Positions 3,001 through 20,678 of a DNA stretch of 20,794 nt are shown here, piece by piece. Numbering within the stretch: the stretch's first letter is position 1; each line of letters opens with the position of its first letter. Location of the stretch: IMG/VR virus record IMGVR_UViG_3300025640_000075, positions 1 to 20,794 of that record; one strand, 5' to 3'. Below the pieces are notes generated by a model. It saw only the letters and a list, made by a program, of their open reading frames with translations. It ran no database searches and was not told the origin of the DNA. Source of the DNA: a virus. A program made the position numbers and the translations under genes.

Positions 3001-5614
3001 GAACATCTACTATAGCTACTCTAGAAGCATGGTAGTCTGTGATTTTTCTTGTTTGCACATACGTAGTACCATCTACCAAAGTTCTTGTTAGCTCAATTGT
3101 TAGGCCCACGTACATATTTGGAGTAGTACTTGCTCCTGAGTGCAGTTGTATACCATTACTTACTATAACTGTAGTGATACTACTGCTGCCAACGTTACTC
3201 CAGTTTGAAGTACCTAGATTAGAGATTATGTTTGATCCGGCAGTATATAGAAATCCAGCGAAGTTACCCGAAGCAAAAGATGGATTAGCGTTAGAAACTA
3301 AACTAACCGTAGGATTGTTTAAAGACAACGCAGCTTCTACAGGAGAAGACCCTGATATAGTTAATTGTTTGTTTCCTCGTGCACTTACGGTGTTGCTCAA
3401 AGGAGCAGGTACAGCTGTGTCTTTTGCTACATAGGCGTCATGAGTTGCCATATACCATCTGTGAGAACCATATCCCATGTAAAAGTGCGTATTTTCAGGT
3501 ATATTTGGGTAGTCACCCGTACTGTCCTGTACTTTAAATCTATACTCGGGCAAGCCGTCCGCCCCATAAACAAACCACTTATCCGTAATTGTAAAGTTGC
3601 CTGATATAAGCGGGTCGCCGTTGCTAGTCTTCTTTAGGTTGACAGTGTGGCCTACCTCAAAGTTAAGTGGGTCTGCGCTTCCAAATCCAGCTCTCTTATC
3701 TTTGGCGTAAGAATTATCATAGTTGTAGCATTTTACCGCCACACCTCTAACTACCATCTTAAATTTAGGTAAGTCTGTTTCGCCTTCGTCTATTTTGAAT
3801 TTGGCGTGTATATAAGAAGTATCCAGTACCCTGTGATTAGGCCCCCAGTACATCTCTTTACCTTCGTAGTAGTCTTTTTGTACCTTGAAGTTTTTAAGTA
3901 CTCCACCTGCTGTAGTGGCAGTAGTTTGGGCAATAGAGACTAGATCGTTATCTGCTTTTTGGTACCCACCACCATTATGGAACGTCAAGTCTGTTTTTAA
4001 CGGGTTGTCAAAAGAATATGATAGCCCATGTAGTATACCTGTATTACCTACAGGCGCGCTCAGTAAAGTATAATTAGGTACACTATATGACTCTGTTAAA
4101 GGGACTACGCCTGCATTACTTTGTACCTTAAACCAATCGGTTTCGCCTACGTTACTAGTTGTAACTAAGACAGGTTGATTTTCAACGGCATTATACCCTC
4201 TTAACGTATTGCCACGATTTTGATAGCCTTTACATAAGAAATCCGTTCTTCCATCAGAGTCAGAAGCGGCTACATTTGTGCCTCGAACATCAAAATCAGA
4301 TTCATCGGTACAAATAGAACTGTTCCCGTTAAGATGTATATCATACAGGCCTGTTATAGGGCCTTCCGCTATCGCGTAGCATGAGTGTACTTCCGTAGAC
4401 TCGTGGTTTCTAGTATCTACGAAGAAGGGTATAGTATCTACTCTCTGTACTCCATATACTACAGGTAGATATTTGGCTTGCAAGTTGAACTTAAGATCTA
4501 GTTCGGTAGGTACATCGTACTCTACTTCTTTAGTATCTACGTCGCTAACCCCTCCATACCAGTTTTTATCTACGTCAACCTCTACTCGAGTTTCAGTTTT
4601 CTGGTATACTGCTGTAAGATTTACTGACGTGGTTGCGTGTGCAAAACCTAAATCGTCTGCATAAGCTTCCCGTATGGCAGCTTCCCTGTCTGGCAAACCG
4701 TCAGCGTTTACAGCTCTATGTGATGTATCTTCCGTTCTTCGTCCTTGTACTCTATTAAAGTCCGCCCAATGACTGGCTGCCGTCCACGTAATAGTAGAGG
4801 ACCCAGGTCCATCGGTTAGAGCAGCTTTAGATATGATCCCTCGAAAAGTTAATATACCGCCCTGAACACTACCGGGACTATTATTTGCTCCTCCGATTAT
4901 ACTTCCTGCTGAAATAGTGTCGCCATTAGATAAAGTAGTAAACTCTGTAGCAATAAATACTTTATGTACGTAAACTTCTCGATTAATATAGCTAGTATAC
5001 GAGGTAGCTTCTTTGGCTGTTGTAAGGGCGGTTAGCTCTTCGGAAGCAAGATCAATACTGGCAAAAATAAAATTCGTTATAGTGGGAATTGTATCTAACG
5101 CTGTATAAGTAAATCCTAGGCCATTGTTTGTGAAAGTATTAATACGAACAGATATATCATTATACGCAGAATTAGCAGACTTAAATGTTACTTTGTCCCC
5201 TTCTCGAAAACCCGCCTCTACAAAGTCCCCGTTAGTAGTAACTATAGCGCCATCACTACCTGCAGTAGTATTTCCACCGTTAGTATAGGGAAGCGTCACT
5301 GTAGAGTCCAAAGTAGAGGAATCGAGTACTATATTAATACTCGATGCTTTCGCCTTTATAGTCTCGTTTACAGAACCAGCTTTAACAAGCTTGTTTGCTC
5401 TATATACTTGAGGTCCATTACCATCGCCATCATCAAACACGATATCATAAGGTGCGTCTGTTATATAAGTATAGTTTTTAGAGTCTGTAGAAGCTACTCC
5501 CAAATATTGAGATACTTTTGTAGGTCGCTCAAACTTTAATAAGTGAGCATATGTAAAAGGCACATTATCAATAAGTGCCTGTTTTAGTGTTGCATTAATT
5601 TCTCTAAGTGCCAT
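1..5614 (-). CDS. Central tail hub / tip attachment protein (J-like), C-terminus beyond left edge
   Basis: The minus-strand frame from the ATG at 5614-5612 has no stop for 1871 codons and runs off the left edge; I read it codon by codon. The ATG overlaps the stop of the distal tail gene (TAATG), with a GGAGG about 10 bases upstream. The N-terminus (MALREINATLKQ) and a segment near residues 895-940 (DERPSTNPAMQLLDYLTSER) look like hub proteins of the T5 pb3 / lambda J kind, which cap the tube at the tip and carry receptor-binding parts. A fibronectin-III-like stretch lies near residues 1336-1475 and a PKD-like stretch near 1520-1630. Collagen-like GXY linkers at 1637-1643 and 1823-1835 flank a probable beta-sandwich. 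It is longer than T5 pb3 (about 950 aa) or lambda J (about 1130 aa). Hub identity is likely; domain names beyond that are inference. Confidence 0.85.
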   Translation of the reverse strand, partial: MALREINATLKQALIDNVPFTYAHLLKFERPTKVSQYLGVASTDSKNYTYITDAPYDIVFDDGDGNGPQVYRANKLVKAGSVNETIKAKASSINIVLDSSTLDSTVTLPYTNGGNTTAGSDGAIVTTNGDFVEAGFREGDKVTFKSANSAYNDISVRINTFTNNGLGFTYTALDTIPTITNFIFASIDLASEELTALTTAKEATSYTSYINREVYVHKVFIATEFTTLSNGDTISAGSIIGGANNSPGSVQGGILTFRGIISKAALTDGPGSSTITWTAASHWADFNRVQGRRTEDTSHRAVNADGLPDREAAIREAYADDLGFAHATTSVNLTAVYQKTETRVEVDVDKNWYGGVSDVDTKEVEYDVPTELDLKFNLQAKYLPVVYGVQRVDTIPFFVDTRNHESTEVHSCYAIAEGPITGLYDIHLNGNSSICTDESDFDVRGTNVAASDSDGRTDFLCKGYQNRGNTLRGYNAVENQPVLVTTSNVGETDWFKVQSNAGVVPLTESYSVPNYTLLSAPVGNTGILHGLSYSFDNPLKTDLTFHNGGGYQKADNDLVSIAQTTATTAGGVLKNFKVQKDYYEGKEMYWGPNHRVLDTSYIHAKFKIDEGETDLPKFKMVVRGVAVKCYNYDNSYAKDKRAGFGSADPLNFEVGHTVNLKKTSNGDPLISGNFTITDKWFVYGADGLPEYRFKVQDSTGDYPNIPENTHFYMGYGSHRWYMATHDAYVAKDTAVPAPLSNTVSARGNKQLTISGSSPVEAALSLNNPTVSLVSNANPSFASGNFAGFLYTAGSNIISNLGTSNWSNVGSSSITTVIVSNGIQLHSGASTTPNMYVGLTIELTRTLVDGTTYVQTRKITDYHASRVAIVDVPWDTGYMPGFGLETGETDTFTLFTGIDERPSTNPAMQLLDYLTSERYGKGLKESDIDLPTFKSAAAACDQQSTVTVVANGSVTVANGAQYRYGTAGSVSGYFRGTVESSVQRTVGGNPYTEITFTNVLGKLAKKWNKYSIWVTEELIWNPADGVLKKATAGQQSSFTGSTQTSLSLTKVYGSGSPGTIALDVTTFKAGNNNPVVKKYTTNFDTFSGSGYSLYDADDIKYWKYIGWDDNTQRHATRHQMNQSINTSQPLFTNVNKMLDQFNGMLRYSLGKYQLKIKSKAPSTFDAIEDIDAGDIIGDLKITDSGSKKTFNSANLSFPDPQNKFENRDISFFDSKFLKEDKGLPKNLSYQCRGITNYFNARFNIVQKLKESRYGLTVNFKIGPQGHALLPGEIIRITYPRFGWATKSFRITSITYSPDCLATITADEHNNDAYVVDSTQESVDTLFTPGGIAIKPIPDSPTALATSAPSAGGIGLTWVHSASYRPTTHFLEVWRSDTNSRSISQAITANSAPNSNAAYTDVVVSSNTGIAVGQLVKYRNSPTNLVVQAINGTTITLSAPVEIVDETVLLFFVAKKIATLGDEVEYTDTILSSATSVDRYYWVRYAVRVQEAGTGAVKIKESFSPFHPTSATGGVVGTNQPAGSPRTLTIFSGANGQSGNFIQYDVDSINPNPNAVTLTAVPGNVAGTQSYVWTVAVPGGTFSAVPSAGNNATQAFTLPTNLSGLPKIIRCVMTDTVGTTEYTAEATLEFYGTRVVADGEDGEDGAVSAQLVDRFMRSRSAAVGDITFSTINNAVKLVDAGGIDNEIAMVLPAKTVIAGQKYDVSFAYKADSAASAGFYARINADTNVLSSGNTAVASGGFHETGVKDVTNTSSAVPGFLNGSVLSNAAVSTEWQVRTFVYTVPTDAVVASLQFLRWSGMGGDGVTAGSATNALYIKDVEFSLQGEAGDNGDDGDDGFTLSSRLPAFTFSAPANGNIADLTGYSGFFDLKKGT
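110..148 (-). repeat. Collagen-like GXY linker in the hub protein
   Basis: Codons at hub residues 1823-1835 read GEAGDNGDDGDDG: four consecutive G-X-Y triplets and a final glycine, with acidic X and Y positions. Short collagen-like runs in phage tail fibres act as rigid trimeric linkers between domains. The DNA shows a near-tandem catcatctc unit. A shorter similar run lies at 686-706. Confidence 0.75.
686..706 (-). repeat. Short collagen-like GXY run in the hub protein
   Basis: Hub residues 1637-1643 read GEDGEDG, two G-X-Y triplets and a glycine. It lies about 180 residues before the longer run at 110-148, so the two runs bracket one probable globular domain. Confidence 0.6.
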
Positions 5615-6354
5615 TACGGTTGGGCCTCCTCTAGACTGAGTGATAGTTTGTATAAGTTATTAACGTCTAAGTTGTACCCTATATCCTTTTGTTTATTGAT
5701 TACTCGGAACTTTACATCTGTAAAATCCACAGTGGTGGTCGATGATTGTACAGATCTCTGCAAAGGCGGAGTAAAGCTAATTTTAAGCTCATTTATAGTA
5801 GGCTGAGGATTTGTCGAATAATCGTCATTGTGTTCTACTCTAGTAATCATATATACTTTTACATGATTGGTATCGTTAGTATCTGTTATAGTAAAAATGT
5901 CTCCTGGAGAAGGAGTTTTGTGGGTGTCAAGAACAAACGTAGTACCAGACTTAGTATCTAACATGAATGAATCTTTACCCGCCGCTACATTAGCAGTAGG
6001 CTTCAAAGCGCTAGTAGCTAGGTAAGTAGCAAAAGTAGCGTTTTGTGGGGCAATGTATTGAGGCAGCGACACAAAGAACGCAGAGGTAGCACCTTTCTTT
6101 TGAAGAAGAAAAGCGTGCATAGGCTCAAACTCGGCACGAGTAAGTGGGTTGTAGCTTATGCTTATTTCCCACTTATGTCCTGCTATATTACGAACAATTG
6201 CTCGCCCAGAGTTAGTTCTAGTAGTCATACTAGGTAGCTGAGATTTTAGAGAGACGGAAGCATACCCAGGTCCATTGACAGGAAGCGTTCCAGTGCTAGC
6301 CCCCGCGGGGGTTATTGGATTATTCGGATCCGGTAGTACATGTGTAAATGCCAT
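5614..6354 (-). CDS. Distal tail protein-like minor tail protein
   Basis: This 246-aa protein sits between the tape measure and the hub, where siphoviruses encode the distal tail (Dit-like) protein that joins the last tube ring to the hub. Residues about 25-110 hold a conserved-looking block: SLKSQLPSM, then HKWEISISY, then RAEFEPMHAFLLQKKG, then FFVSLPQY. I associate this pattern with minor tail proteins that form a ring at the tube end. The C-terminal half is beta-rich and ends in a repeating hydrophobic strand pattern. No signal peptide or membrane segment is visible. The ATG overlaps the tape-measure stop (TAATG), with an AGGAG 11 bases upstream, and its own stop overlaps the hub start in the same way, so translation of the three is probably coupled. 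The assignment rests mainly on gene order. Confidence 0.65.
   Translation of the reverse strand: MAFTHVLPDPNNPITPAGASTGTLPVNGPGYASVSLKSQLPSMTTRTNSGRAIVRNIAGHKWEISISYNPLTRAEFEPMHAFLLQKKGATSAFFVSLPQYIAPQNATFATYLATSALKPTANVAAGKDSFMLDTKSGTTFVLDTHKTPSPGDIFTITDTNDTNHVKVYMITRVEHNDDYSTNPQPTINELKISFTPPLQRSVQSSTTTVDFTDVKFRVINKQKDIGYNLDVNNLYKLSLSLEEAQP
6300..6311. other. 12-bp perfect GC palindrome inside the distal tail gene
   Basis: CCCCCGCGGGGG is a perfect palindrome about 15 codons after the start of the distal tail gene, in otherwise AT-leaning sequence. In mRNA it could form a short stem with a CGCG loop. It encodes the T-P-A-G-A stretch, so it may simply reflect coding. Confidence 0.5.
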
Positions 6355-9300
6355 TAGATTGTTGCTCCTTCACTCGCAGTATCCACGTTCTCTAGGAATG
6401 TGTCTCCTACTTGGTTTGCTGATTCTCTTATCATTGCTATTATATTTGCTCTCTGTCTTATTAATACATCTTCTACACCTGCTGAATCCATCGCTGAGAT
6501 ATTAAAACTTACGTTAGACCCCGCCCCGCCTGCTGCTGCAGTATCTCCTGCAGGTACAATTGTTCCTGGTGTGTCAGGCATAAATAGTTCAGGTCCTTGC
6601 TCTCCTACCATGAACCCTGTACTACCTCCGGCTGCTCTGTAACGAGCTCCAGTAAATGCAGGCTTAAAGTTGTTAGCATTTCCTAAACCTTCTCGACCGC
6701 GAGCATATCCTAATTCACCTACAGCACTCTGCGACTTCGATAGATCTACTGAATTTGATCTTTCTCCTTGAGAGACAGAGCTTGGACTTGAAGCTGCTCC
6801 TCCGGCAGATGCGGCACTACCACCGCCTTCGTACGAGGTTGACTTAATAGCGGCCAACTGTGCCAAACCCATAGCTAAGTTAATTGCTACCATTGGCATA
6901 CCTAAAGTCGCAGGGCTTGCGGCGATAGAACCTGCTACTGCTTGAGCAGTAGATATAATTACAGAAGCCATCTTCATCTTCTTCTCTTTCTCAAAAGCTT
7001 TCTTTTTAATAGACTCTTTTTTCTTTTCTAGAGCCGCTATTTTTGCTAGACTTTGTTTTGATTTTCCGTCACGCTTTCTTTCTGCAGCAATTTCTTTATC
7101 TACACTTGCTACCTTAGCTTTTGCCTGCGCTGCAAATATACCCGACATTGCGGTAACTGCTGTAGCAGCTACTGATAGCCCTTCTTGCATACTAATTTTT
7201 CCGCCTTCCATTGCGGTTTGCATGGTTTCGCCTAAAGTAAGGAAGCCGCTTATAGCGCTGCTCATAAACTCTCCCTCTGGACCCATTTTGGCTAACTCTT
7301 CATTCATAGGGCTTACGAAATCTGCTACCTGAGAAAAGGTTTCCATTTCTACTTTCTTGTCCTTACCTTCTCCGGTACTTTCCATGCCGCCCAATACTGC
7401 GGTAGTCTGCGCTGCAGCTCCTGACAAAGCTCCTTCGGTACTCTTTATTTTTTCTATTTCGGCTAACTTGGTTTTTATAGCTAACTCTTCTCTCAGGTTT
7501 ATTAGCTCTTGTTGCTTGACAGGATCTTTTTCGGCAGTAATCTTTGCTTCTAATATCTTTTGATCTAGTAAGGTTTGAGATAAAGTAATCTGTGCACTGA
7601 CTATTTTATTTCTCTCCGCCCCTAAAAAGCCTGCAATATTGTTTGACATATTGAGTGCCTTCTGTGCAGCTTCAATTGCTATTAAGTCATTTATGTATTC
7701 CTTGGTATTTACATTCTCTCCTAACGCTTCACTGAACTTACTTAGTGCTTCAGAGGCGAAAGCAGAGTCTGGGCCAAGAGCTTTACCTGCTGCTACTGCT
7801 ACACCATTAGCTTCTGTCTCTAGCGCCTGTAAAGAGACTCGAGCTTTCATTAGATCGCCAGAACCAATATTTTGCCTAATGTTAGAGATAGAATCATCTA
7901 GTGCTCTCATTCCGCTTGTTGCAGCTTGAGAAGCTAGCTCTAATCTTTGGACTTCTGAGGTGTCTCCACTCTTTAAGGCGTCCCCTACTTTCGAGCTTAC
8001 CTTGCCTACTTGAGAGAACTTAGACTGAACAGCCGCCATCTTTGTAGGGTCGCCACCTGCAGAGGCCATAGCGTCTCCTATTCCTAGGCTACCTATGGCG
8101 TTGAGAGCAACTGATTCTCTGTTTAAACCATTCTTTGTTTTTAGCTTTCCTATGATACTATCTAGATCTTCTTTCATCACATCTAATGTCTCATTAAATG
8201 CTTCTTGTTCTTCTTTTGCCACTCTTGTAGCTGTTGCAGTATCTTCCATGTTCTTTAAGAAACCGCCTATCGAGGACTTCTCAAAAGAACCAGATAGATC
8301 GGATACCATTTGAATACCGTCTTCCATGCTTTTTGGAAGCAAGAATTTAGGTATAGAACTAACTATCTTATTGAAACCGGCTATAACCCCGTTGATGATA
8401 AAATCAATACCGCTTAGTATCTTTTTGACCAAAGTAAATGGAGCTTCCATTATCTTTTGCCCTATTTCCCACACCATCATAAGTGCACCGATAATACCTG
8501 CCATTTTCATAGCTTTGCCTACCATCTTACCAGTGAATTGAGCTGTCCTACCTATGGCGCGTAGTGCTCCCGTTCCTGCTCTTTTTGTCTGTAGCCACAT
8601 TTTCTTTACTACTAAACCTGTGCGCTTGAACTGTTTCTGTATAGAGAAGTTCGTTTTCTTAGAGTACCGAACTTGCTGCTTTAAAGCTCTTCGCATGATT
8701 TGTATATCTTTCATACTTGTTTTTTTGAGAATTTTAGACTTAATCTCTCCATGCTTCTTAAAGTCATCTTCCGCGCGCTTAAGCATCGCACGAGTCTGCC
8801 CTATCTGAGCTTTGGACATTTTGTCCCCACCAGCAAGCTTACCTATTAAACCACCTTTAATGCCGGTTCTTTTAGCGGCATTTCTGGCAATCTTATTGGC
8901 TCTTTTCTGTTGATCACCTGTCTTCTTTATCTCTCTGGTGACATTGGCGAGATTTGCTTTTGTACTATCCAACGCTGCTTGTTGCCCTTCATCGAATTCT
9001 TTAAACTTATTTTTAACCCCGTCCAGAGGTACCATCATTTTGAATATACCAATACCTAAAGCACCGAAAACGGTGACAGCAGCTACTGCGTTACTAGAGA
9101 TTATATTGGCCATGCCCTCGAAAAGAGGTAGAACCATTTGAGTACCTGTTTTTGCCAAATCCTCAAAGGTTTTTGACAGGCGTATGAAGGCGTTTGTTTG
9201 TGCGGGGACTTTACCAAACAGTTGATCTGCTTGTTTCATTGTCTCTAAATAAATGGCTTGTGAGCGTTGTGTATCTGTCAAAGAATCTGCAGTAGTATTT

Positions 9301-9956
9301 AAAGAAGCCGCATAGCTCTCCGTAGCTGTTTTGAGTCTTAAAGTAATACCCAATTCATCTAGTAATTCTGGTTCCGCTTTAGATACACCTCTTAGTAGTC
9401 TATCGAAAGAATCCCCAAAATCTCTACCAAGAGCAGTAGATGCTTTGCGAGCGGCTACAGCTAAGTTATCTAACTGTTTAGGAGAGAAACCTTTGGCTAA
9501 GCCAATACCTGCAGCTTGAGCAGCTTCTTTAAACCCTAGCATGCCGTCACTGGCATTGCGAAGCCTATCGGTTACACTTCCTAGTGCTACACCTGTATTT
9601 GCTGCATAAGATATTTGAGACTTCTCTAGGTTAGATACGTCTGCTGCGTTTTTAAAGAAATTAAATGCGGCGCTAAGGGCGAACACGTTAGCGGCAAGAG
9701 TTGCGTATGCACCTACTAAAGAGGAGCTGCCCCCATTGATAGTCTGTGCTTGTTTGGCGAATCCCTTAGTAGAATTACTAGTAGCTCCCGAGACACCTTT
9801 TTCTTGTTTGTGGTAGCCTCTTCGTTTCTTACTAAGTTTTTCGGTGGAAGTGGCGAGCTTATCTGTTGCCTTGGAAGCTTTTTTAGCTTCACCGGATATA
9901 ACAGATAAGTCCCCATTATCATCAATCTTTATGCGTATTTTTACTTCGCTTCCCAC
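6354..9956 (-). CDS. Tape measure protein
   Basis: This is a 1200-aa protein that sets tail length and passes through the tube lumen. Evidence is its size, its place after two chaperone-like genes, an alanine- and lysine-rich helical composition, and hydrophobic segments near residues 79-101, 272-309 and 480-540. Residues 105-270 show a tape-measure-like block (FKEAAQAAGIGLAKGFSPKQ and following). Near residue 1115 lies the motif GFMVGEQGPELFMP, which recurs near tape-measure C-termini. Taking about 0.15 nm per residue, the tail would be near 180 nm long. The start is GTG at 9956-9954, one base after the previous stop; only a weak AAGAGA-type ribosome site is visible. A glycine/serine/alanine-rich linker precedes the C-terminal motif. 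No peptidase motif (such as a transglycosylase or M23 site) was recognised. Confidence 0.93.
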   Translation of the reverse strand: MGSEVKIRIKIDDNGDLSVISGEAKKASKATDKLATSTEKLSKKRRGYHKQEKGVSGATSNSTKGFAKQAQTINGGSSSLVGAYATLAANVFALSAAFNFFKNAADVSNLEKSQISYAANTGVALGSVTDRLRNASDGMLGFKEAAQAAGIGLAKGFSPKQLDNLAVAARKASTALGRDFGDSFDRLLRGVSKAEPELLDELGITLRLKTATESYAASLNTTADSLTDTQRSQAIYLETMKQADQLFGKVPAQTNAFIRLSKTFEDLAKTGTQMVLPLFEGMANIISSNAVAAVTVFGALGIGIFKMMVPLDGVKNKFKEFDEGQQAALDSTKANLANVTREIKKTGDQQKRANKIARNAAKRTGIKGGLIGKLAGGDKMSKAQIGQTRAMLKRAEDDFKKHGEIKSKILKKTSMKDIQIMRRALKQQVRYSKKTNFSIQKQFKRTGLVVKKMWLQTKRAGTGALRAIGRTAQFTGKMVGKAMKMAGIIGALMMVWEIGQKIMEAPFTLVKKILSGIDFIINGVIAGFNKIVSSIPKFLLPKSMEDGIQMVSDLSGSFEKSSIGGFLKNMEDTATATRVAKEEQEAFNETLDVMKEDLDSIIGKLKTKNGLNRESVALNAIGSLGIGDAMASAGGDPTKMAAVQSKFSQVGKVSSKVGDALKSGDTSEVQRLELASQAATSGMRALDDSISNIRQNIGSGDLMKARVSLQALETEANGVAVAAGKALGPDSAFASEALSKFSEALGENVNTKEYINDLIAIEAAQKALNMSNNIAGFLGAERNKIVSAQITLSQTLLDQKILEAKITAEKDPVKQQELINLREELAIKTKLAEIEKIKSTEGALSGAAAQTTAVLGGMESTGEGKDKKVEMETFSQVADFVSPMNEELAKMGPEGEFMSSAISGFLTLGETMQTAMEGGKISMQEGLSVAATAVTAMSGIFAAQAKAKVASVDKEIAAERKRDGKSKQSLAKIAALEKKKESIKKKAFEKEKKMKMASVIISTAQAVAGSIAASPATLGMPMVAINLAMGLAQLAAIKSTSYEGGGSAASAGGAASSPSSVSQGERSNSVDLSKSQSAVGELGYARGREGLGNANNFKPAFTGARYRAAGGSTGFMVGEQGPELFMPDTPGTIVPAGDTAAAGGAGSNVSFNISAMDSAGVEDVLIRQRANIIAMIRESANQVGDTFLENVDTASEGATI

Positions 9957-9957
9957 G

Positions 9958-10320
9958 TTATTTTCTCTTTAGCTTATCCCTTTCACGCTTCATATACTCT
10001 GCGGATTGGTTTATAGCTCTTGAGTCTAACCAGTTTATAAGTTCCAGGAAGAGCTCAGTATCTTCTATTTCGTACGCTTTAATCAATTCTGTTAGGTTGG
10101 AGTAGTCCTTCCCTAGATACCCTATATCAGCTACGAGCCTGTCCCCTAACATATTGAATATGCTTATGCTTATCTGCACTATGTTAGGTAGATCTTTCCA
10201 CTCTACGGGTATTTTTTGAGGGTCGGGCTCCGTACCCATTTGTTCGCAGATCTCAAAGTATTTATCTGCTGTTACTTTTGCTTCGGCGTTGTTAAAGAAC
10301 TTAGTCAGCCGTTCCCACAA
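9958..10320 (-). CDS. Second tail assembly chaperone-like protein
   Basis: This 120-aa, mostly helical and charged protein lies directly before the tape measure, where siphoviruses encode the downstream half of the tail-assembly chaperone pair (lambda G/GT-like). The first codon of the frame after its upstream stop that suits initiation is TTG at 10320-10318, overlapping the previous gene by 20 bases. A purine run (GGAGAAGGAGGAG) precedes it. One GGAG is spaced 9 bases away, and the better GGAGG match only 2 bases away. The frame is +1 relative to the upstream gene, so it may be made alone from TTG or as an extension by +1 (or -2) frameshifting. The first internal methionine is at residue 28. 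The sequence itself was not recognised; the function is inferred from position. Confidence 0.6.
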   Translation of the reverse strand: MWERLTKFFNNAEAKVTADKYFEICEQMGTEPDPQKIPVEWKDLPNIVQISISIFNMLGDRLVADIGYLGKDYSNLTELIKAYEIEDTELFLELINWLDSRAINQSAEYMKRERDKLKRK

Positions 10321-10735
10321 CTCCTCCTTCTCCGACTGTACGAAAGTTGTCTAAATCAAAGACTACCTCGTTGAGCCATCCATCAAATTCCGCTGATTGA
10401 CTTACTAAGATTTCTGCATTTTCTACAGAGAAATCTAACTCTTGTGATAAATCTACTCCCTCGGTTTCGATAAGAATCAAAGTCTCTAGATGCTCTAGTG
10501 TGAGACCTTTCCAGTTCTTGATAACTGCTTGAGTGAAGTACTGTACAAACTTCTCTTCATCAAGTACTTCTTCCATTTGACGAGTTTTACGGTCGAGCTT
10601 TTGGCTAACACATCTCTTACGTAAGTTTTGAAGTTCTTTACGAGAAAGATTAACTACTTCTACTTCGAATCCTGTTAGTCCTGGGAATTCTACCCATGCT
10701 GATTTGCTGTCTATGATTAAATTTTTCAGTTGCAT
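10301..10735 (-). CDS. First tail assembly chaperone-like protein
   Basis: This 144-aa acidic, helical protein lies between the tube genes and the tape measure, the usual place of the lambda gpG-type chaperone that coats the tape measure before the tube polymerises. The N-terminus (MQLKNLIIDSKSAWVEFPGL) starts with a beta-type segment, then turns helical and charged, as in this family. The start is ATG at 10735, with a strong TAAGGAGG site that includes the stop of the preceding gene. The C-terminal 20 bases overlap the next gene, and its last codons (GEGGVVGTAD) contain the GGAGAAGGAGGAG purine run. No lambda-type -1 slippery heptamer is visible. The assignment is by position and general composition. 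Confidence 0.65.
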   Translation of the reverse strand: MQLKNLIIDSKSAWVEFPGLTGFEVEVVNLSRKELQNLRKRCVSQKLDRKTRQMEEVLDEEKFVQYFTQAVIKNWKGLTLEHLETLILIETEGVDLSQELDFSVENAEILVSQSAEFDGWLNEVVFDLDNFRTVGEGGVVGTAD

Positions 10736-10747
10736 TTAAAAGCCTCC

Positions 10748-11770
10748 TTAGGCTGTTGTGTATGTTAAGTAATTGGTAAAAGTGTCTGCATTACTTGCCA
10801 GTCTCCAGTCATATTGATTTGTCACAACAGAACCTGGAGAAACTCTGCTTGTGAAGTTAATTGGTGCTTCTAGTTTTATGCCGTAGTTCGCGGAACCTAT
10901 TCTACTATATAATATAACTTGTAGTGTGGCACCTTGTGAGTAAGTAAGAACAGGTGCTGTAGCGTAGTAGGTCACACTCCCTGCGATATTTCTATTACTA
11001 AGGGAGAACCCAGAAGGGTATTGAACATTGGTGCCGGGCTCTACGGCATCTACTTCTGTTAATGCTTTATGCACTGTCTGATAGCCTGTCCAACTTACAG
11101 CGTTCTGTAGTTCCATGTTTATAGATGCAGCATGCTCACTTCTATCGTGTCCTGTAGCGCTATAGCTAGTTCCAAAGTAATGATCAGTAAGCGGAAGAAA
11201 ACTTCTAGTAGCGGATCGAGCAACTACATTGGCAGTAGTAAAAGTGGGTATAGTCGAAAGCGCACTAAAGGCTGCACTTATATTACCTAGACTGTCTACT
11301 ATCTTGCCTCCGTTTATGGAGGTTGTGCTCGCCAGATTGTTTATAGAAAGTTTTGTTCCTTGACCACTTAACTCTAAAGATATAGGTGCGCTATTTGATG
11401 CAGTAAAGTTACCGCTAGTAAGTACACAATCTTCTATGGAATATACTACTGCGTCAATTATAAAAAATAAGTTGAAAGTATTTAAGGTATGCTCTGTATT
11501 TAAGTCTACTAATAAATTGAATACTACATCAAAGTCAGATTCTTTAAGTAATGGTATAGTAAAACCAAAATCAGCTGGGTTTGCCTTGGAGATAGAGCCC
11601 GCCTGTACAAGGCTAGAAAGACTATGTAGTGTCTTTTGTTTGTATGTGTGTTCGGTAAAGGTCTGAGAGAAAGATATCCCATCAGGAGTTATATCTAACT
11701 TATACGTATCAGTTCCCACAGTAGGCTGCAAGTAAACATCTGCATTCTCTAAAAACTGATAAATATCCAC
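10748..11770 (-). CDS. Third tail-tube paralogue, divergent short form
   Basis: This 340-aa protein shares several tube signatures with the 1264-aa protein before it. Residues 11-36 (DVYL, then ISFSQ) match KVYL/PSFSQ there and KLYV/YSFSQ in the major tail protein. Residues 96-141 (LNTFNLFF, then C-L-S, then LELSGQGTKL) match LDTFNLYF, then C-L-S, then INWSGYGTHL. Residues 255-270 (FSLSNRNIAGSVTYY) fit the G-S-V-S-G-S strand. It lacks the propeller insertions. It may form a special ring at one tube end or a minor tube subunit. The start is GTG at 11770-11768 with GGAG five bases upstream, and the gene has its own upstream promoter at 11819-11847. It ends at a TAA that is part of the next ribosome site. 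Homology to the neighbours is visible by eye; the exact role is unknown. Confidence 0.7.
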   Translation of the reverse strand: MDIYQFLENADVYLQPTVGTDTYKLDITPDGISFSQTFTEHTYKQKTLHSLSSLVQAGSISKANPADFGFTIPLLKESDFDVVFNLLVDLNTEHTLNTFNLFFIIDAVVYSIEDCVLTSGNFTASNSAPISLELSGQGTKLSINNLASTTSINGGKIVDSLGNISAAFSALSTIPTFTTANVVARSATRSFLPLTDHYFGTSYSATGHDRSEHAASINMELQNAVSWTGYQTVHKALTEVDAVEPGTNVQYPSGFSLSNRNIAGSVTYYATAPVLTYSQGATLQVILYSRIGSANYGIKLEAPINFTSRVSPGSVVTNQYDWRLASNADTFTNYLTYTTA

Positions 11771-11818
11771 ACTGACTCCAGATCCCGGCCTAGGGCCTGT
11801 TCATAATTTCTTCTGTAT

Positions 11819-11847
11819 AGTATATGATAAACAACCTATCATGTCAA
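11819..11847 (-). promoter_or_regulatory. Near-consensus sigma-70 promoter with an internal dyad
   Basis: On the minus strand a perfect -35 TTGACA (11847-11842) and a -10 TATACT (11824-11819) are separated by exactly 17 bases. Transcription would start near 11812, about 40 bases before the GTG of the third tube paralogue. The spacer edges form a 6-bp inverted repeat (ATGATA, seven bases, TATCAT) that could be an operator. It lies in the only sizeable gap that lacks a terminator hairpin. Confidence 0.75.
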
Positions 11848-11863
11848 GATTTATTTTTAGGTA

Positions 11864-14800
11864 CTAGGTTATCGATGATGATCTATACGTTAATTTTACG
11901 ATGTCAGTGTCGTTGGATAAAAGTGGCTGAGTATCTTCTGCAGAGAAGGATACAGAAAAGGATGCTATATCTCCGCCTGATATTTCGGGATTGACTAGAG
12001 TGACCTTAGGCATCTCGAACTTCAGTCTATTTGTACTAGGTGCGAATCCTCCCATATCAATGGTCAACGGAAGAATCTCTATGGTATCATCAAACAAAGA
12101 AGAGATAAACTCTTTAGTGTCTAAACCATTGTCGTCCATTATGTAGCCAGAGAAACTTCCGGATACTTGTAGAGACCCCGAAGTGAAACCGATAGGGCGA
12201 TCTTTCTCTTTTAGCAAAGGATAAGTTATAGGCATTAACCCGTTGTTTATGCTAACACTTGCTGCAGTAATAGGGAAGTTTACGCCAGTTCTGAATGTAG
12301 CTACATATCCATGATCATTTCCCGCTAATCCCGGTACTTCACCACGTCTAGCTCCACCTGCAATATGTCCATTGCTTACTGCTAATGAGTGTGCAAAAGT
12401 ATCGGTATCGGCCAACCTGGAAGGGTGAAACGTACGTCCTTCAGACCAAGATTTTCCGTAATCAGTAGAGTTCCAAATGTACCCGATGCCTGCAGCATTT
12501 ATTCCGTTGGTGTCGAACGTATGACCGCCTGCCACAATAGTAACATTCTTACCGTTCTCAGACGTGTCCATATCTACAGGCAGTCCGAAATAATCATTAA
12601 CCTCTAAATCAGCAAAGTCTACAGTTAGTGGAAGCAGAGTAGTTACATGATTAAATACGCCTAATGTCGGAGTAGTATTATAGACAAATACACCCCCTGT
12701 ATTACTTAAGCCATTCAGTACATCTAGCCCGTGCTCTCCAATGATCATGGTACCTTCTGCAAGCTTGACTTGGCGATTCCCTGTTGATGCTCCGGTAGGC
12801 AAGTATTTTCTCTCTGCTAGCGACCAGTCTTTTCCATTATTTGTGGACTTGAAGGAGTAGTAAGTACCGGCACCTTCTCCAGAAGCACATACTATAGCCA
12901 CTCCGTCATATATAGCTACTCCTCTACCGAAATAATCGTGTGCTGCACTGGTGCCGCCATGATCTGACCCAACTAAATGCTCTCTCTTAGTCCACAACGC
13001 TCCTTCTCTTCTATAAATAGCGGCGCTGCCTGCTTTGTCGTTGCCTGTAGAAGTATTATCTAGCCAGCAACCTACAATAAGCATGTTGTGATATAAAGAC
13101 ACGTACCTGCCAAATTCTAGGTACGTATCACCGGTAGCGGTGCCTGTAGGGTCTATAATTGCTTCTTGCTGCCACAGGTCTGCTTTTAAGGAGAAGATAT
13201 TTACACGGCCTGTAGTATTTGTACCTCTGCCTTGTTCTCCTATTGCTACCTGCCTACCGCAAGGTGAGATAGAAATTGGACTACCATCATGGGGTCCTCC
13301 AAATTGTGCACTTCCTTCAGGTGAGAAGGAAAATAAAGTCTGTTTAAATACCCAAGCGTTAGTAGCTTCATCAAATTTAAAAACTTGTACTGAGCCTGCA
13401 TCTCCTGTGGCAGTATCATCTCCATATGCGGATACCATCAACCAAGGGTACTGCATGTCCATTGCCGCTCCAAAATAATCATACGATGTAGGCGAATCAG
13501 GAAGCATGCCACCACGATAAAGAACTTCTTTACTTTCTTGCAGACCAAATTCCATGCTACTAAGTTTATTTACTATGTAGTTATCTGTTAGCGCTAACCC
13601 CGTTTTGTTCTCACACATTGAAGGGTGGAAGGCAGCCTTAAAGAAGTGCCAAGAGTGTATATTCTCGCCTTCAAAAACTAAACTATCATTTACAGATAGA
13701 CCTAAAGTAGTACAGTCTATTCGCCCTCTACCCTCCTGGTTCATAACCCAGTTCGTACTAAGACCTACAGCGTGGTTGACCCCGGCTGGAGATAACAAAA
13801 TAGCAAAATACCTTTGTCCGTTGATAACCACAGAATCGTAGCTTCTAGGATTGTAGCGGGCATTTAGTGTTATGTAGTCTGCTGTAATGCTGGTCACAGT
13901 TCGGGTAGTAGTAGCTACGCTTAATCCTGTTCGGTTTTCTAGACATCTAGTTAATATATTGCCATTACTCAATGTGAAGCTATAGTTAGTACGACCCATT
14001 GCACCGCCTAAAGATAATGCTTTTGCAGTATCTAACGTATGGGATAACTCCCAAGTTGTTTCGTTTAAGTTGTATTGGTATAGCTTGCCTCTACCGTAAT
14101 TCGTATCGGTAGAGCCCCAACGTGAGTAATCGTCTGAGCCTGCGACTAATAGTGTAGTTCCATCAAAGTCTATGTGGCGTCCGAAATAATGTTGCGTTGC
14201 TGCAAGAGGAGACGCTATAGTTTGTGTAAGGGACCAAGCTGTTCCATTATGTGTAATTACCAGCACTGCACCGCTATCAAAAAAGCCGGACTGTGAGTCT
14301 ATGTAGGCCATGCCAAGCATGACGGTACCGTAAGTTCCGCCCTGGCGGTTATATTTACATATTTCGTTCTGTGCTGCTATTGGTTTACCGACGGCCCAGA
14401 TAAATAAAGTCTGCTCTAGTGACCAAGTTTCTCCCGCGTCTGATGTAGTGTAAAAATAAAGATTTTGTCTGCTCGGAATAACAATTCTGTCTCCATCTAT
14501 CTGCACACTTCTTCCGTATTGCTGGTCCGTTCCATCTGTGTTATATAATATAGCCTTTTGCACCCATGCGTTGTTTACAAGCTTCCATACAACTGCTGCA
14601 CCAATATCATCGTTTAAACTATCTCCGGAATCGTGCCCAGATACACCTGTTACTAAATAGTCTCCACTCATTGCTACTGATTGACCTAGTCTATCATCAT
14701 CATAGTCCCCTGAGACTCCGTCATCGTCACCATTATCCTCGTCAAAGTCAGGACTAGAATAAGCCGCTACAAGAGTCCAAACTCCTGCAGATCTAGTAAA

Positions 14801-15658
14801 GTAGTAGAATCCTCCGTCTCCGCCCAGGCGATTGACTGCACCTATAACAAGTTTATCCCCTTCGAGAGCCATAGAGACCCCGAAGTACTCATGGGATCCC
14901 GTCTCAGTAGGTCGTAAAGTCTGTTGAAACTCCCACGTACACCCACCATCATTTGTTACATACACATGAGCAGCACCATCGTAGTTATTTGTATCAGGGG
15001 CGTTTTCCCATGAGTGTGCAAATATTGCAGTATTGCCTTCCATTGCAGCCATTTTTCCACTGTCAATGTTGCCGCTTCTATGTTGTGGCGAGTTATCTGC
15101 AGACTGTACTAAATCCTGTGGGTCGAACTTTTCTAGATGCGTTCCGTACCCGCTCCAGTTGATTGTTGCCATAGAATCTATAGCTACGCTGGCATTTGCG
15201 CTATTTAGCTTGCAACCTCTTAGTTTATACCCAGTCTTATTTTCAAATACAAAGTACAAATTAAAGGTATCTAGTAGCTCGTCTCTTGACATCGTTACTA
15301 CTTGTGATGCTGCTGATACTGTAGAAGGGGAATTAGCATATGAAGTGGCGGAACCCTTGGAAACTAGCTCCCACAGTACATCTTCCACTGCTCGCTCCTT
15401 AGATCCTTGTGTAAAAGGTCTAACGAAAGTCGAGAAAGAGAAGTTTGCAGGAGCATAGCTAGCTTTTATCTTTTTATTAAATCTATTTAAGGAGTTTCTT
15501 GTTGTACCTCCCCCCACTAAAGTAGGAGTAGCTAACTCTACTGATTCAGATCCCTGTGAGAACGAAGGGGTGCCTGTAACAATAATCTGCCACAAGTGGC
15601 CATCCTTGCTCTCAAGGTATACCTTAGTTTCATTACCATAATAAAAGTCATTAGCCAT
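11864..15658 (-). CDS. Giant tail-tube paralogue carrying two FG-GAP-like beta-propellers
   Basis: This 1264-aa protein starts and ends like the 370-aa major tail protein. N-terminal matches are FSFSTFVRPF (73-82), AVEDVLWELV (90-99) and MATINWSGYGT (163-173). C-terminal matches are DRPIGFTSGSLQVSGS (1153-1168) and the RLKFEMP strand (1211). Two insertions interrupt the tube fold. The first, about residues 195-570, has seven repeats with YFG/LGQS/YGRS-type turns near 203, 258, 323, 381, 443, 491 and 554, each paired with a W-x-x-x-x-T/A-hydrophobic strand. The second, about 712-1125, has seven near 728, 786, 849, 909, 960, 1023 and 1088. A tube-like fragment (TDNYIVNKLSSM, 691-702) lies between them. 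FG-GAP propellers usually bind ligands or cells, so a surface decoration is inferred. The ATG has only a weak ribosome site and follows a terminator. The frame is intact throughout. Confidence 0.85.
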   Translation of the reverse strand: MANDFYYGNETKVYLESKDGHLWQIIVTGTPSFSQGSESVELATPTLVGGGTTRNSLNRFNKKIKASYAPANFSFSTFVRPFTQGSKERAVEDVLWELVSKGSATSYANSPSTVSAASQVVTMSRDELLDTFNLYFVFENKTGYKLRGCKLNSANASVAIDSMATINWSGYGTHLEKFDPQDLVQSADNSPQHRSGNIDSGKMAAMEGNTAIFAHSWENAPDTNNYDGAAHVYVTNDGGCTWEFQQTLRPTETGSHEYFGVSMALEGDKLVIGAVNRLGGDGGFYYFTRSAGVWTLVAAYSSPDFDEDNGDDDGVSGDYDDDRLGQSVAMSGDYLVTGVSGHDSGDSLNDDIGAAVVWKLVNNAWVQKAILYNTDGTDQQYGRSVQIDGDRIVIPSRQNLYFYTTSDAGETWSLEQTLFIWAVGKPIAAQNEICKYNRQGGTYGTVMLGMAYIDSQSGFFDSGAVLVITHNGTAWSLTQTIASPLAATQHYFGRHIDFDGTTLLVAGSDDYSRWGSTDTNYGRGKLYQYNLNETTWELSHTLDTAKALSLGGAMGRTNYSFTLSNGNILTRCLENRTGLSVATTTRTVTSITADYITLNARYNPRSYDSVVINGQRYFAILLSPAGVNHAVGLSTNWVMNQEGRGRIDCTTLGLSVNDSLVFEGENIHSWHFFKAAFHPSMCENKTGLALTDNYIVNKLSSMEFGLQESKEVLYRGGMLPDSPTSYDYFGAAMDMQYPWLMVSAYGDDTATGDAGSVQVFKFDEATNAWVFKQTLFSFSPEGSAQFGGPHDGSPISISPCGRQVAIGEQGRGTNTTGRVNIFSLKADLWQQEAIIDPTGTATGDTYLEFGRYVSLYHNMLIVGCWLDNTSTGNDKAGSAAIYRREGALWTKREHLVGSDHGGTSAAHDYFGRGVAIYDGVAIVCASGEGAGTYYSFKSTNNGKDWSLAERKYLPTGASTGNRQVKLAEGTMIIGEHGLDVLNGLSNTGGVFVYNTTPTLGVFNHVTTLLPLTVDFADLEVNDYFGLPVDMDTSENGKNVTIVAGGHTFDTNGINAAGIGYIWNSTDYGKSWSEGRTFHPSRLADTDTFAHSLAVSNGHIAGGARRGEVPGLAGNDHGYVATFRTGVNFPITAASVSINNGLMPITYPLLKEKDRPIGFTSGSLQVSGSFSGYIMDDNGLDTKEFISSLFDDTIEILPLTIDMGGFAPSTNRLKFEMPKVTLVNPEISGGDIASFSVSFSAEDTQPLLSNDTDIVKLTYRSSSIT
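12284..13525 (-). other. Second beta-propeller insertion (seven FG-GAP-like repeats)
   Basis: This region encodes residues about 712-1125 of the 1264-aa protein. Repeat marks are DYFGAAMDM, QFGGPHDG, FGRYVSL, YFGRGVAI, NRQVKLAEG, YFGLPVDM and FAHSLAVSN. Each sits 50-65 residues from the next and is followed by a V-I-G/C-A/G turn and, in most repeats, a tryptophan strand. The spacing and count fit one seven-bladed propeller. It occupies the loop where the major tail protein has only about 20 residues. Confidence 0.7.
13589..13948 (-). other. Linker between the two propellers with ENxTGL repeats
   Basis: Residues 571-690 of the 1264-aa protein do not fit the FG-GAP pattern. They contain LENRTGLSV near the start and CENKTGLAL near the end. 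A related FENKTGYKL occurs in the N-terminal tube part at 138-146. The middle is beta-rich with a DSVVINGQRYFAIL stretch. I do not recognise the fold. Confidence 0.5.
13949..15076 (-). other. First beta-propeller insertion (seven FG-GAP-like repeats)
   Basis: This region encodes residues about 195-570 of the 1264-aa protein. Repeat marks are KMAAMEGNT, EYFGVSMAL, RLGQSVAMS, YGRSVQIDG, TYGTVMLGM, YFGRHIDFD and MGRTNYSFT. Tryptophan strands sit at WEFQQTL, WTLVAAY, WVQKAIL, WSLEQTL, WSLTQTI and WELSHTL. The count fits one seven-bladed propeller. An aspartate-rich loop at residues 304-322 could bind calcium, as FG-GAP loops often do. Confidence 0.7.
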
Positions 15659-15711: not shown

Positions 15712-16824
15712 TTAAGCGAAGTAAGCGATTGAACACTCGTCGGTGCCGTCAATGAACTGAGGAAGTGCATCAAAGGTAGCCTCTACAGATACAACATCGT
15801 CGAAACTATGTTGTGGAATCTGGAAGTGTGAGTGATTACACTGAAAACGCAATCTAGGAGTAGCTGAAGTTGTGCCACCGATATTAACAGTTAAGTCAAA
15901 CTCATTGGTAATCTTACCTGTTGAAAGAGTTAAATCTTCAAACAAGTCTGCAGATCCAGCCGCAGCATCGTCCAAGTAACAAGTTAAAGAACCTGAAACA
16001 CTTCGAGTTCCTGTAACATGGCCAATAGGCTTATTAACAACGCCTAACTCTTCTGGAGTTAAGAAAGTAAGGTTATTAGAAACTGTAATGTTTCCGCCGG
16101 TTAAGACCAAGTTGTAAGAACCTAAGATTGATTCACTTGCAGATGCAGTTAGAGCCAAAGTACTTAGTCTGTTTTGGATAAAGTTGCTTGTGCTTGTAAT
16201 CTTCTCATCTATAGTTGTTGTTGGAGCAGACCCTTCAGTAATAGTAGTGCCCATGCCCGACCAGTTAATTGTTGCAATGCCTTCGATATCAAAATCAATA
16301 CTTGCTTCGTTGAAAGCAGCACCGTTGATTTCATAAGCCATAGAGCCAGAACCTGATTCATTAGGGATTACAAACGTTAATACAACTCCAGAAGCCAAGG
16401 TTGGTACATTAGACTGAGTAAACTCAATGTTCAAGTCGGTACCATCTGAAGTAGAAACTACAGATGAGCCACGTTTCATATCACCGGCTGTCCAAGTGTC
16501 TGCACCTAGCAACAAGCCCCAAAGAATTTCTTCTACGGCGTGGATATCGTTGTCTGTATCACCAGCTGGTTTAGCGTAAGCTGCAGTACCTTTAAAAGGT
16601 CTAGCATAAGTCGAAAAAGAGAACTCTACAGGGGCTAAAGAGTTATTAAACATCTTTCTGCCTCGGCGACTAACTCCAGTTGCACCAGTTGCTTCTGATA
16701 AAGTAACTTCTGCTGTGTTTGTTGATTGAGAGAACGAATAGCCCTCTAATACTGGGATTTCCCAAACTTCGCTGCTGATCCCGGAAACGTATAGTTTTAC
16801 GTCTCTACTCATAAAAATTGACAT
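15712..16824 (-). CDS. Major tail (tube) protein, T5-like
   Basis: This 370-aa protein would stack in rings to form the tail tube. Tube signatures are KLYV then YSFSQ (residues 10-33), VEFSFSTYARPF (66-77), AVEEILWGLL (96-105), GIATINWSGMGT (182-193), NFIQNRLSTL (214-223) and NKPIGHVTGTRSVSGSL (264-280). The last two, with the N-terminal set, recur in the 1264-aa neighbour. It is shorter than T5 pb6 (464 aa), and no separate Ig-like domain is obvious. The ATG at 16824 has a good AGGAG site 8 bases upstream. A second in-frame ATG lies four codons later but is worse placed. It follows the tail terminator gene after a 63-base leader and is followed by a stable terminator hairpin, as expected for a very abundant protein. 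Assignment as the main tube subunit rests on homology pattern, position and expression signals. Confidence 0.85.
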   Translation of the reverse strand: MSIFMSRDVKLYVSGISSEVWEIPVLEGYSFSQSTNTAEVTLSEATGATGVSRRGRKMFNNSLAPVEFSFSTYARPFKGTAAYAKPAGDTDNDIHAVEEILWGLLLGADTWTAGDMKRGSSVVSTSDGTDLNIEFTQSNVPTLASGVVLTFVIPNESGSGSMAYEINGAAFNEASIDFDIEGIATINWSGMGTTITEGSAPTTTIDEKITSTSNFIQNRLSTLALTASASESILGSYNLVLTGGNITVSNNLTFLTPEELGVVNKPIGHVTGTRSVSGSLTCYLDDAAAGSADLFEDLTLSTGKITNEFDLTVNIGGTTSATPRLRFQCNHSHFQIPQHSFDDVVSVEATFDALPQFIDGTDECSIAYFA

Positions 16825-19280: not shown

Positions 19281-20678
19281 TTATGCGTCAGCAGTAAACT
19301 GTACAGCCACTGCACCAAGAGCTGATTGGATTCGTGAGAAGCCAATAGCCTGAGTTGCAACAATTGCATTTCGTTGGTTAGCTACTTCGTAGTCTGTTTC
19401 AATCTTAACGCCTCTTAATCGACCGATTAAGAATGCATCAACATTTACAGCAACACATGCAGTACCAGCAGAAGCCGGTGCAAGAACGTCACTTACGATT
19501 ACTGGAGAACCGTATGCTTGACCAACTTGACCCGTAAGGATAGTTGCACGATCATTACCAATCTGATCAACAGTTTGGAAATCCGCATCTTCTAGTAACT
19601 TATAGTAAGCAGGTAGAGATACAATGTATGCAATCTTAGTTGGATTAACACCAAATTTACCCATTTTTCCACGTGCAGCAATCAAGTCTGCACCAGAGAA
19701 CGCAGGAGCGCCATCTAACTGAGCTAATGTTGTTAGCGGAGTGGCTAAAAGGCCAGTGCCTTTATCGGTACTATCACCACCAGCCAGACCAAGCGTGTTG
19801 TTAGCAGTACCATAAAGCAATGCTTTATCGATTGCGCGACCATGTGCAACAGCTAAAGCTGAAGTGATCATAGGCAAGAAGCTAATCAAAGACTCTTCGT
19901 CAGTATCATTGTCGATAAAAGTACCAGCAATAACACGCTCAGTGTTGATGATTCGCTTACCAATGTCGAATTGACCTTCAGTACCACCGTTCTGTAAACG
20001 ATTAGTATTAGTGCTAAGACCGCCAGCACCACCAAATACCGCTTCGTCTGCTTCTGCAGCGAAAGGAATGATAGTAGCTTGTGAATTTACTGGAATCTCA
20101 CGGAATAAACCGGCAACATTAGTTGATAAAGAAACTTCTTCTTCAAATGCTTGAGTAACAGAAAGATCGATATTACCGTCTGTAGCTACTGGAGTTGGAG
20201 TACCGAATAAAGTATTTTTCTGCATAAGATCTTTAGCAAAGTTAGTTCCCATGCCTTTACCAGTGATTGCACCTAAAACGCTAGCATGTAAGAATTCTTT
20301 AGAGAAATCAGACTGACCAGATTTTGCTGCAAACTCCATTTTGCTGTTACGCATAGCTTCTAATTCTGCAGATTTCTCGGCAACATCAGCTTCATACTTC
20401 TTAACAACGTCAGCCATTTCACTGTCTTTTGCCTTAGCAAAGTCAGCTTCCATGTCAGCTTTTAATTTTTCTGCGCCAGTTTCGATACCAGTGCGGATTA
20501 CTGTTTTAACTTGCTCGTCTTGAGCAGCTTTTGCTTCTGCAGCGTCAGCTGCGATTTTTGCTTGCGCTTCGTCAGCGGCTTTTGTTTCGGCTTGTTTCAT
20601 TGCAATTTTAGCAGCAGTTTCTTCAGCTACTTTCTTAGCAAATGCTTCCAAGTCGATTCCGGATTCATTAGTATCCAT
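19281..20678 (-). CDS. Major capsid protein, HK97 fold, with N-terminal delta/scaffold domain
   Basis: This 465-aa protein forms the head shell. Residues 8-115 are an alanine, lysine and glutamate-rich coiled coil, as in the delta domain that acts as internal scaffold and is cut off by the prohead protease. From about residue 120 the HK97-type shell domain follows, with strands such as LFREIPVNSQATIIPFA, the ERVIAGTFIDND segment, the GRAIDKALLYG helix and the C-terminal RLRGVKIETDYEVANQRNAI. The size is close to T5 pb8 (458 aa). The ATG at 20678 has a strong AGGAG seven bases upstream. The frame, however, is open further upstream to the window edge (residues QEIK directly before the M), so the protein may also be made as a fusion. 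A terminator follows at 19231-19263. Confidence 0.92.
   Translation of the reverse strand: MDTNESGIDLEAFAKKVAEETAAKIAMKQAETKAADEAQAKIAADAAEAKAAQDEQVKTVIRTGIETGAEKLKADMEADFAKAKDSEMADVVKKYEADVAEKSAELEAMRNSKMEFAAKSGQSDFSKEFLHASVLGAITGKGMGTNFAKDLMQKNTLFGTPTPVATDGNIDLSVTQAFEEEVSLSTNVAGLFREIPVNSQATIIPFAAEADEAVFGGAGGLSTNTNRLQNGGTEGQFDIGKRIINTERVIAGTFIDNDTDEESLISFLPMITSALAVAHGRAIDKALLYGTANNTLGLAGGDSTDKGTGLLATPLTTLAQLDGAPAFSGADLIAARGKMGKFGVNPTKIAYIVSLPAYYKLLEDADFQTVDQIGNDRATILTGQVGQAYGSPVIVSDVLAPASAGTACVAVNVDAFLIGRLRGVKIETDYEVANQRNAIVATQAIGFSRIQSALGAVAVQFTADA

Follow-up and report, generated by a model that had tools for sequence, protein, structure and literature searches.

We analyzed the tail region of an uncultured T5-like phage in a window that comprises the entire 20,794-bp virus record. 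The tail genes are encoded on the minus strand, where a gene for the major tail (tube) protein (15712-16824) is followed by one for a giant tail-tube protein of 1264 aa with FG-GAP repeats (11864-15658) and by a third tube homologue (10748-11770), a baseplate tail-tube (T5 p140-like) gene with a GTG start. The third homologue matches the T5 baseplate-tube family weakly, and its orthologue in a related contig (L048:6591-7520) matches the base plate tail tube protein family of PHROG. Further downstream lie two tail assembly chaperone genes (10301-10735 and 9958-10320) and the genes for the tape measure protein (6354-9956) and a distal tail protein similar to pb9 (5614-6354). A promoter-like site is situated in the 93-bp gap between the giant tube gene and the baseplate-tube gene, the gene context that a preliminary description of this DNA had given. 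The giant tube homologue is inserted between the major tail protein and the baseplate tube; it is kept in the related contigs L002-L005 and also in L007 and L008, where it is cut by the contig end. Another relative (L052:9502-14887) encodes three successive tube homologues and has a promoter of the same type after each of the first two.

The sequence TTGACATGATAGGTTGTTTATCATATACT at 11847-11819 on the minus strand consists of a -35 element TTGACA (11842-11847), a spacer of 17 bp (11825-11841) and a -10 element TATACT (11819-11824). It matches the consensus at 11 of 12 positions, has a spacing within the 16-18 bp of sigma70-type promoters and lacks the TG of an extended -10. Sites with 9 of 12 matches are common in the window and not more frequent than in shuffled sequences. 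TTGACA-N17-TATACT is the top-scoring sigma70-like site of the window, and shuffles gave a chance expectation of 0.05 per window for its hexamer pattern class, confirming the near-consensus promoter proposed previously. Upstream of the -35 element we found an AAAAATA block (11852-11858, positions -46 to -40) that resembles the proximal part of an UP element and has its A tract at about -46 to -42, in register with the hexamers as in T5-type promoters. The minus strand from 11858 to 11819 reads AAAAATAAATC-TTGACA-TGATAGGTTGTTTATCA-TATACT, an exact match to the composite pattern AAAAAWA-N4-TTGAC-N18-TATAMT, which has no other match in the window even when three mismatches are allowed. Transcripts would start near 11812, about 7 nt past the -10 element, with a predicted 5' leader (11771-11812) that contains a GGCC-CTA-GGCC hairpin without a T-run and then a TGGAG Shine-Dalgarno sequence.

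Relatives were collected from IMG/VR with the baseplate-tube protein and the tail terminator protein as queries. The promoter is kept at the same place in dozens of distinct sequences, the outcome of a conservation check that the preliminary description had suggested. A baseplate-tube homologue was recognisable in 24 loci, a set that ranges to weakly similar proteins and includes a few overlapping copies of one contig, and in all of them a promoter with 10-12 of 12 consensus matches and a spacing of exactly 17 bp stands just upstream of that gene. At the 60%-identical loci L003-L005 it is the same base for base except for two changes in the spacer. In 44 distinct sequences the promoter lies 9-75 nt past the stop codon that ends the last main tube gene, and its spacer is always 17 bp long. 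It follows the giant gene in loci with this insertion, the window among them, and precedes a tail chaperone gene in loci in which no baseplate-tube gene follows. Essentially every related IMG/VR locus whose contig extends beyond the last main tube gene has it, most of the apparent exceptions being contigs that end at the junction and L045 being a true one. Searches of INPHARED with the DNA or the baseplate-tube protein found no cultured relatives, and the major tail protein matched those of T5-like and Vibrio phages with less than 60% identity. As in L045, the junction is without a promoter in T5, where the major tail and baseplate-tube genes are a few bases apart, and in Vibrio phage D254, which carries TTGACA-17-TATACT within its tail terminator gene. 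The site therefore characterizes one large clade and is not general among T5-like phages.

Another conserved promoter, built in the same way and termed P1, lies outside the window, between terL and a small gene preceding the portal gene. It is present in about 34 distinct sequences, among them L006:3083-3111 (plus strand), L007:3083 and L029:3072, which combine a 12/12 consensus with the A5 block. We compared P1 with the promoters at the tube-gene junction (P2), which in the relatives had been picked by their hexamer pattern; neither set was selected for the A5 block. When aligned on the hexamers, AAAAA at -46 to -42 is invariant in 46/46 P2 and 34/34 P1 promoters, while the bases just upstream of this block and most spacer positions vary. 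All 46 P2 sites also have TTGAC in the -35 element and TATA[C/A]T as the -10 element. The window spacer has AGGT at -25 to -22, a weakly conserved W-[GG/CC]-T position that P1 and P2 have in common; as it is weak in the other promoters built in this way, we do not claim a functional spacer element. Up to 13 copies of the composite pattern were counted in a single contig (of 69 kb), and a reversed-pattern control gave 0 matches. Scanning IMG/VR with the composite DNA motif alone yielded at least 120 matches, and among the matches listed 84 of 120 directly follow a tail-tube gene.

The A block lies at the position of the proximal UP-element subsite. In E. coli, this subsite is an A-rich block directly upstream of the -35 element where the alpha-CTD binds, and the block seen here may likewise be contacted by the alpha-CTD; it is UP-like by sequence and differs in that the P1 and P2 promoters usually have T at -41. 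Subsites of this kind are described in the UP-element literature (Estrem et al. 1999, as cited in PMC4390567). The T5 promoters annotated in AY543070 show the same A block. Judged by sequence, the closest experimentally known relative of the window promoter is T5 PJ5 (AY543070, 99910-99984), which shares AAAAA at -46 to -42, TTGACA, the 17-bp spacer, an identical TATACT hexamer, GG at -24/-23 and a location within the late tail region. PJ5 differs in its exact position, inside gene T5.146 before the major tail gene, whereas the window promoter comes after the tube genes. T5 P-G25 (92013-92087) is a late promoter in the tail-gene region that likewise has an A block, followed by TTTC before the -35 element, and an adjacent terminator; it differs in its hexamers, TTGATA and TATAAT, and lies downstream of the tape-measure gene D18-19 and before T5.139. 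Transcripts from PJ5 and PG25 appear late in T5-infected cells (PMC7472727), and in Cupriavidus, outside its host, PJ5 acts as a strong, constitutive promoter (PMC8570001). The ATATT discriminator that marks T5 early promoters (PMC7472727) is present in none of the P1 and P2 promoters; the window promoter, without this discriminator and preceding virion genes, has these two features of a T5-type late promoter. This kind of promoter is already known, and its placement at the junction of the tube and baseplate-tube genes is new to us.

We conclude that the window site is very probably a strong late promoter of the T5 type, with an UP element, TTGACA, a 17-bp spacer and TATACT, which serves the distal-tail genes beside P1. 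It would be read late in infection by the host RNA polymerase with the housekeeping sigma factor, and the transcript from 11812 would run into the baseplate-tube gene and then into the chaperone, tape measure and tail-tip genes. Transcription of the head genes and the tube gene would fall to P1, on the terL/portal side. The message for the distal tail would thereby be supplied separately from that for the head and tube, and in the relatives terminator and promoter together could set the two levels apart. The position of the site and its sequence conservation, which extends to distant relatives, support the earlier suggestion that the baseplate-tube, chaperone, tape measure and tip genes may be transcribed apart from the upstream genes. 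Conservation alone suggests that in a large group of uncultured T5-like phages the late genes fall into two units, head/tube and distal tail, each with a strong promoter of its own. Since the contigs contain further promoters built in this way at other places, some of which may precede early genes, we infer late timing from the gene content and from T5.

The promoter is ordinary in kind; the arrangement of terminators beside it in the relatives is unusual and testable. Among the relatives, an intrinsic terminator stands before the promoter in 22 cases, after it in 19, on both sides in 0 and on neither side in 5, the last group comprising L002 (representing the window), L003, L004, L010 and the first promoter of L052. 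In L048, L015, L017, L071, L043 and others, a strong promoter and then an intrinsic terminator occur within about 100 nt past the stop codon of the tube gene. On the tube-protein tree, the terminator-before and terminator-after states are interspersed, and supported branches force at least 4 changes. Having the terminator before or after the same promoter, these relatives provide a natural set of variants on which the control of late transcription can be tested. The exactly one terminator in nearly all of them raises the idea, compatible with a late promoter and adding to it, that promoter and terminator form one device, in which the terminator ends the abundant message for the tube protein and the promoter begins a new transcript for the low-copy tail-tip proteins, at a level of its own. 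T5 P-G25, annotated with a terminator just upstream, fits this arrangement. The window clade can be aligned with the promoter-then-terminator relatives; at the corresponding place it carries a GGCC-NNA-GGCC hairpin without a T-run, which we read as a putative decayed terminator. Because of this decay, read-through and new starts would add up in the window clade. The window leader folds no more stably than shuffled sequences (z = +1.0), which speaks against the device reading, and an Rfam search of the leader gave sub-threshold noise only. A terminator placed after the promoter should, moreover, halt the promoter's own transcripts too. On balance, we give the combined device about even chances.

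The 19 sequences with the terminator after the promoter (type II) could also be read in another way. Their terminator stem begins at about +3 to +14, and a terminator just past the start would give an RNA of about 40 nt unless it is read through. The Q-dependent late promoter pR' of lambda is a strong promoter that is likewise followed at once by a terminator, tR', although the terminator of the type-II relatives is much closer to the start. A switch like pR'-tR' would have the polymerase start early and halt near +40 until resistance to the terminator is conferred by a phage factor or by the sequence of the start region itself, with the window as a simplified descendant. Besides the position of the stem, the ATGNAATAGAAAA-like initial sequence of most type-II relatives and the similar spacer position -25 to -22 of P1 and P2 are in line with such a switch. 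In about half of the family, however, the terminator comes before the promoter, and the state has changed repeatedly on the tube-protein tree; no antiterminator was identified, we know of no Q homologue for the type-II relatives, and the window itself lacks an intrinsic terminator in its early transcribed region. We therefore consider a lambda-like switch unlikely. Similarly doubtful is the broader proposal that the promoter family is the late switch of a large uncultured T5-like clade, in which phage factors or conserved initial and spacer sequences overcome a promoter-proximal terminator in about half of the members, the window being a derived version that lacks the terminator. Promoter-linked terminator resistance and a phage antiterminator are both possibilities for the relatives with the terminator after the promoter. 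If true, the broader proposal would explain by antitermination how T5-like phages switch from early to late expression, a step that is still unexplained in T5 (PMC7472727).

Control by a repressor is very unlikely. The preliminary description had noted an inverted repeat, ATGATA-N7-TATCAT, said to span the spacer edge and the -10 element, and had proposed it as an operator whose repressor, bound over the spacer, would hold back distal-tail expression or keep it silent in a prophage. The dyad is present at 11824-11842, but it extends from the last base of the -35 element to the first base of the -10 element and hence covers the spacer, not the -10. It is a perfect 6+6 repeat centred in the spacer, and for the given promoter the chance of a repeat in this exact frame is about 0.0009, in keeping with an operator. 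The outer A-T pair is already supplied by the two hexamers, 2.5% of random spacers are expected to create an inverted repeat with 6-bp arms within the 29 bp (given the promoter), and such repeats occur at 3.5 per kb in the window. Any 6-bp-arm repeat within the 29 bp was found in 3/46 P2 and 1/34 P1 promoters, near this expectation. All six pairs in frame occur in the window/L002 context alone (1/46 P2 and 0/34 P1). The dyad is limited to the window and a 98%-identical relative and is broken in the 60%-identical relatives; L003-L005 have ATTCTA as the left arm, other relatives have different sequences there, and the G and A at -28/-27 that form this arm in the window replace TT, the family norm. 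The same dyad was to be sought elsewhere, near a repressor gene, but five related contigs contained no second copy. Searches of ten related contigs (20-69 kb) detected neither an integrase nor an HTH_3 repressor gene; all of these contigs are fragments, so that the repressor search is partial. As the dyad is neither conserved nor repeated and these searches for an integrase and an HTH_3 repressor were negative, the operator and prophage readings are not supported, and the dyad is probably a chance feature of one lineage rather than a conserved control site.

That the promoter itself is a chance look-alike in AT-rich DNA has a negligible probability, being contradicted by the conserved position, spacing and A5 block in dozens of relatives whose spacer bases differ.

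Elsewhere in the window, a strong terminator-like hairpin, GGGGTGGTTCGCCGCCCC followed by a T-rich stretch, lies at 19257-19240 on the minus strand, directly after the gene at 19281-20678. By position, this gene corresponds to a capsid/protease gene of L006 (4980-7061), whose 693-aa product is matched at the same N-terminal residues by profiles of both the head maturation protease and the major head protein.
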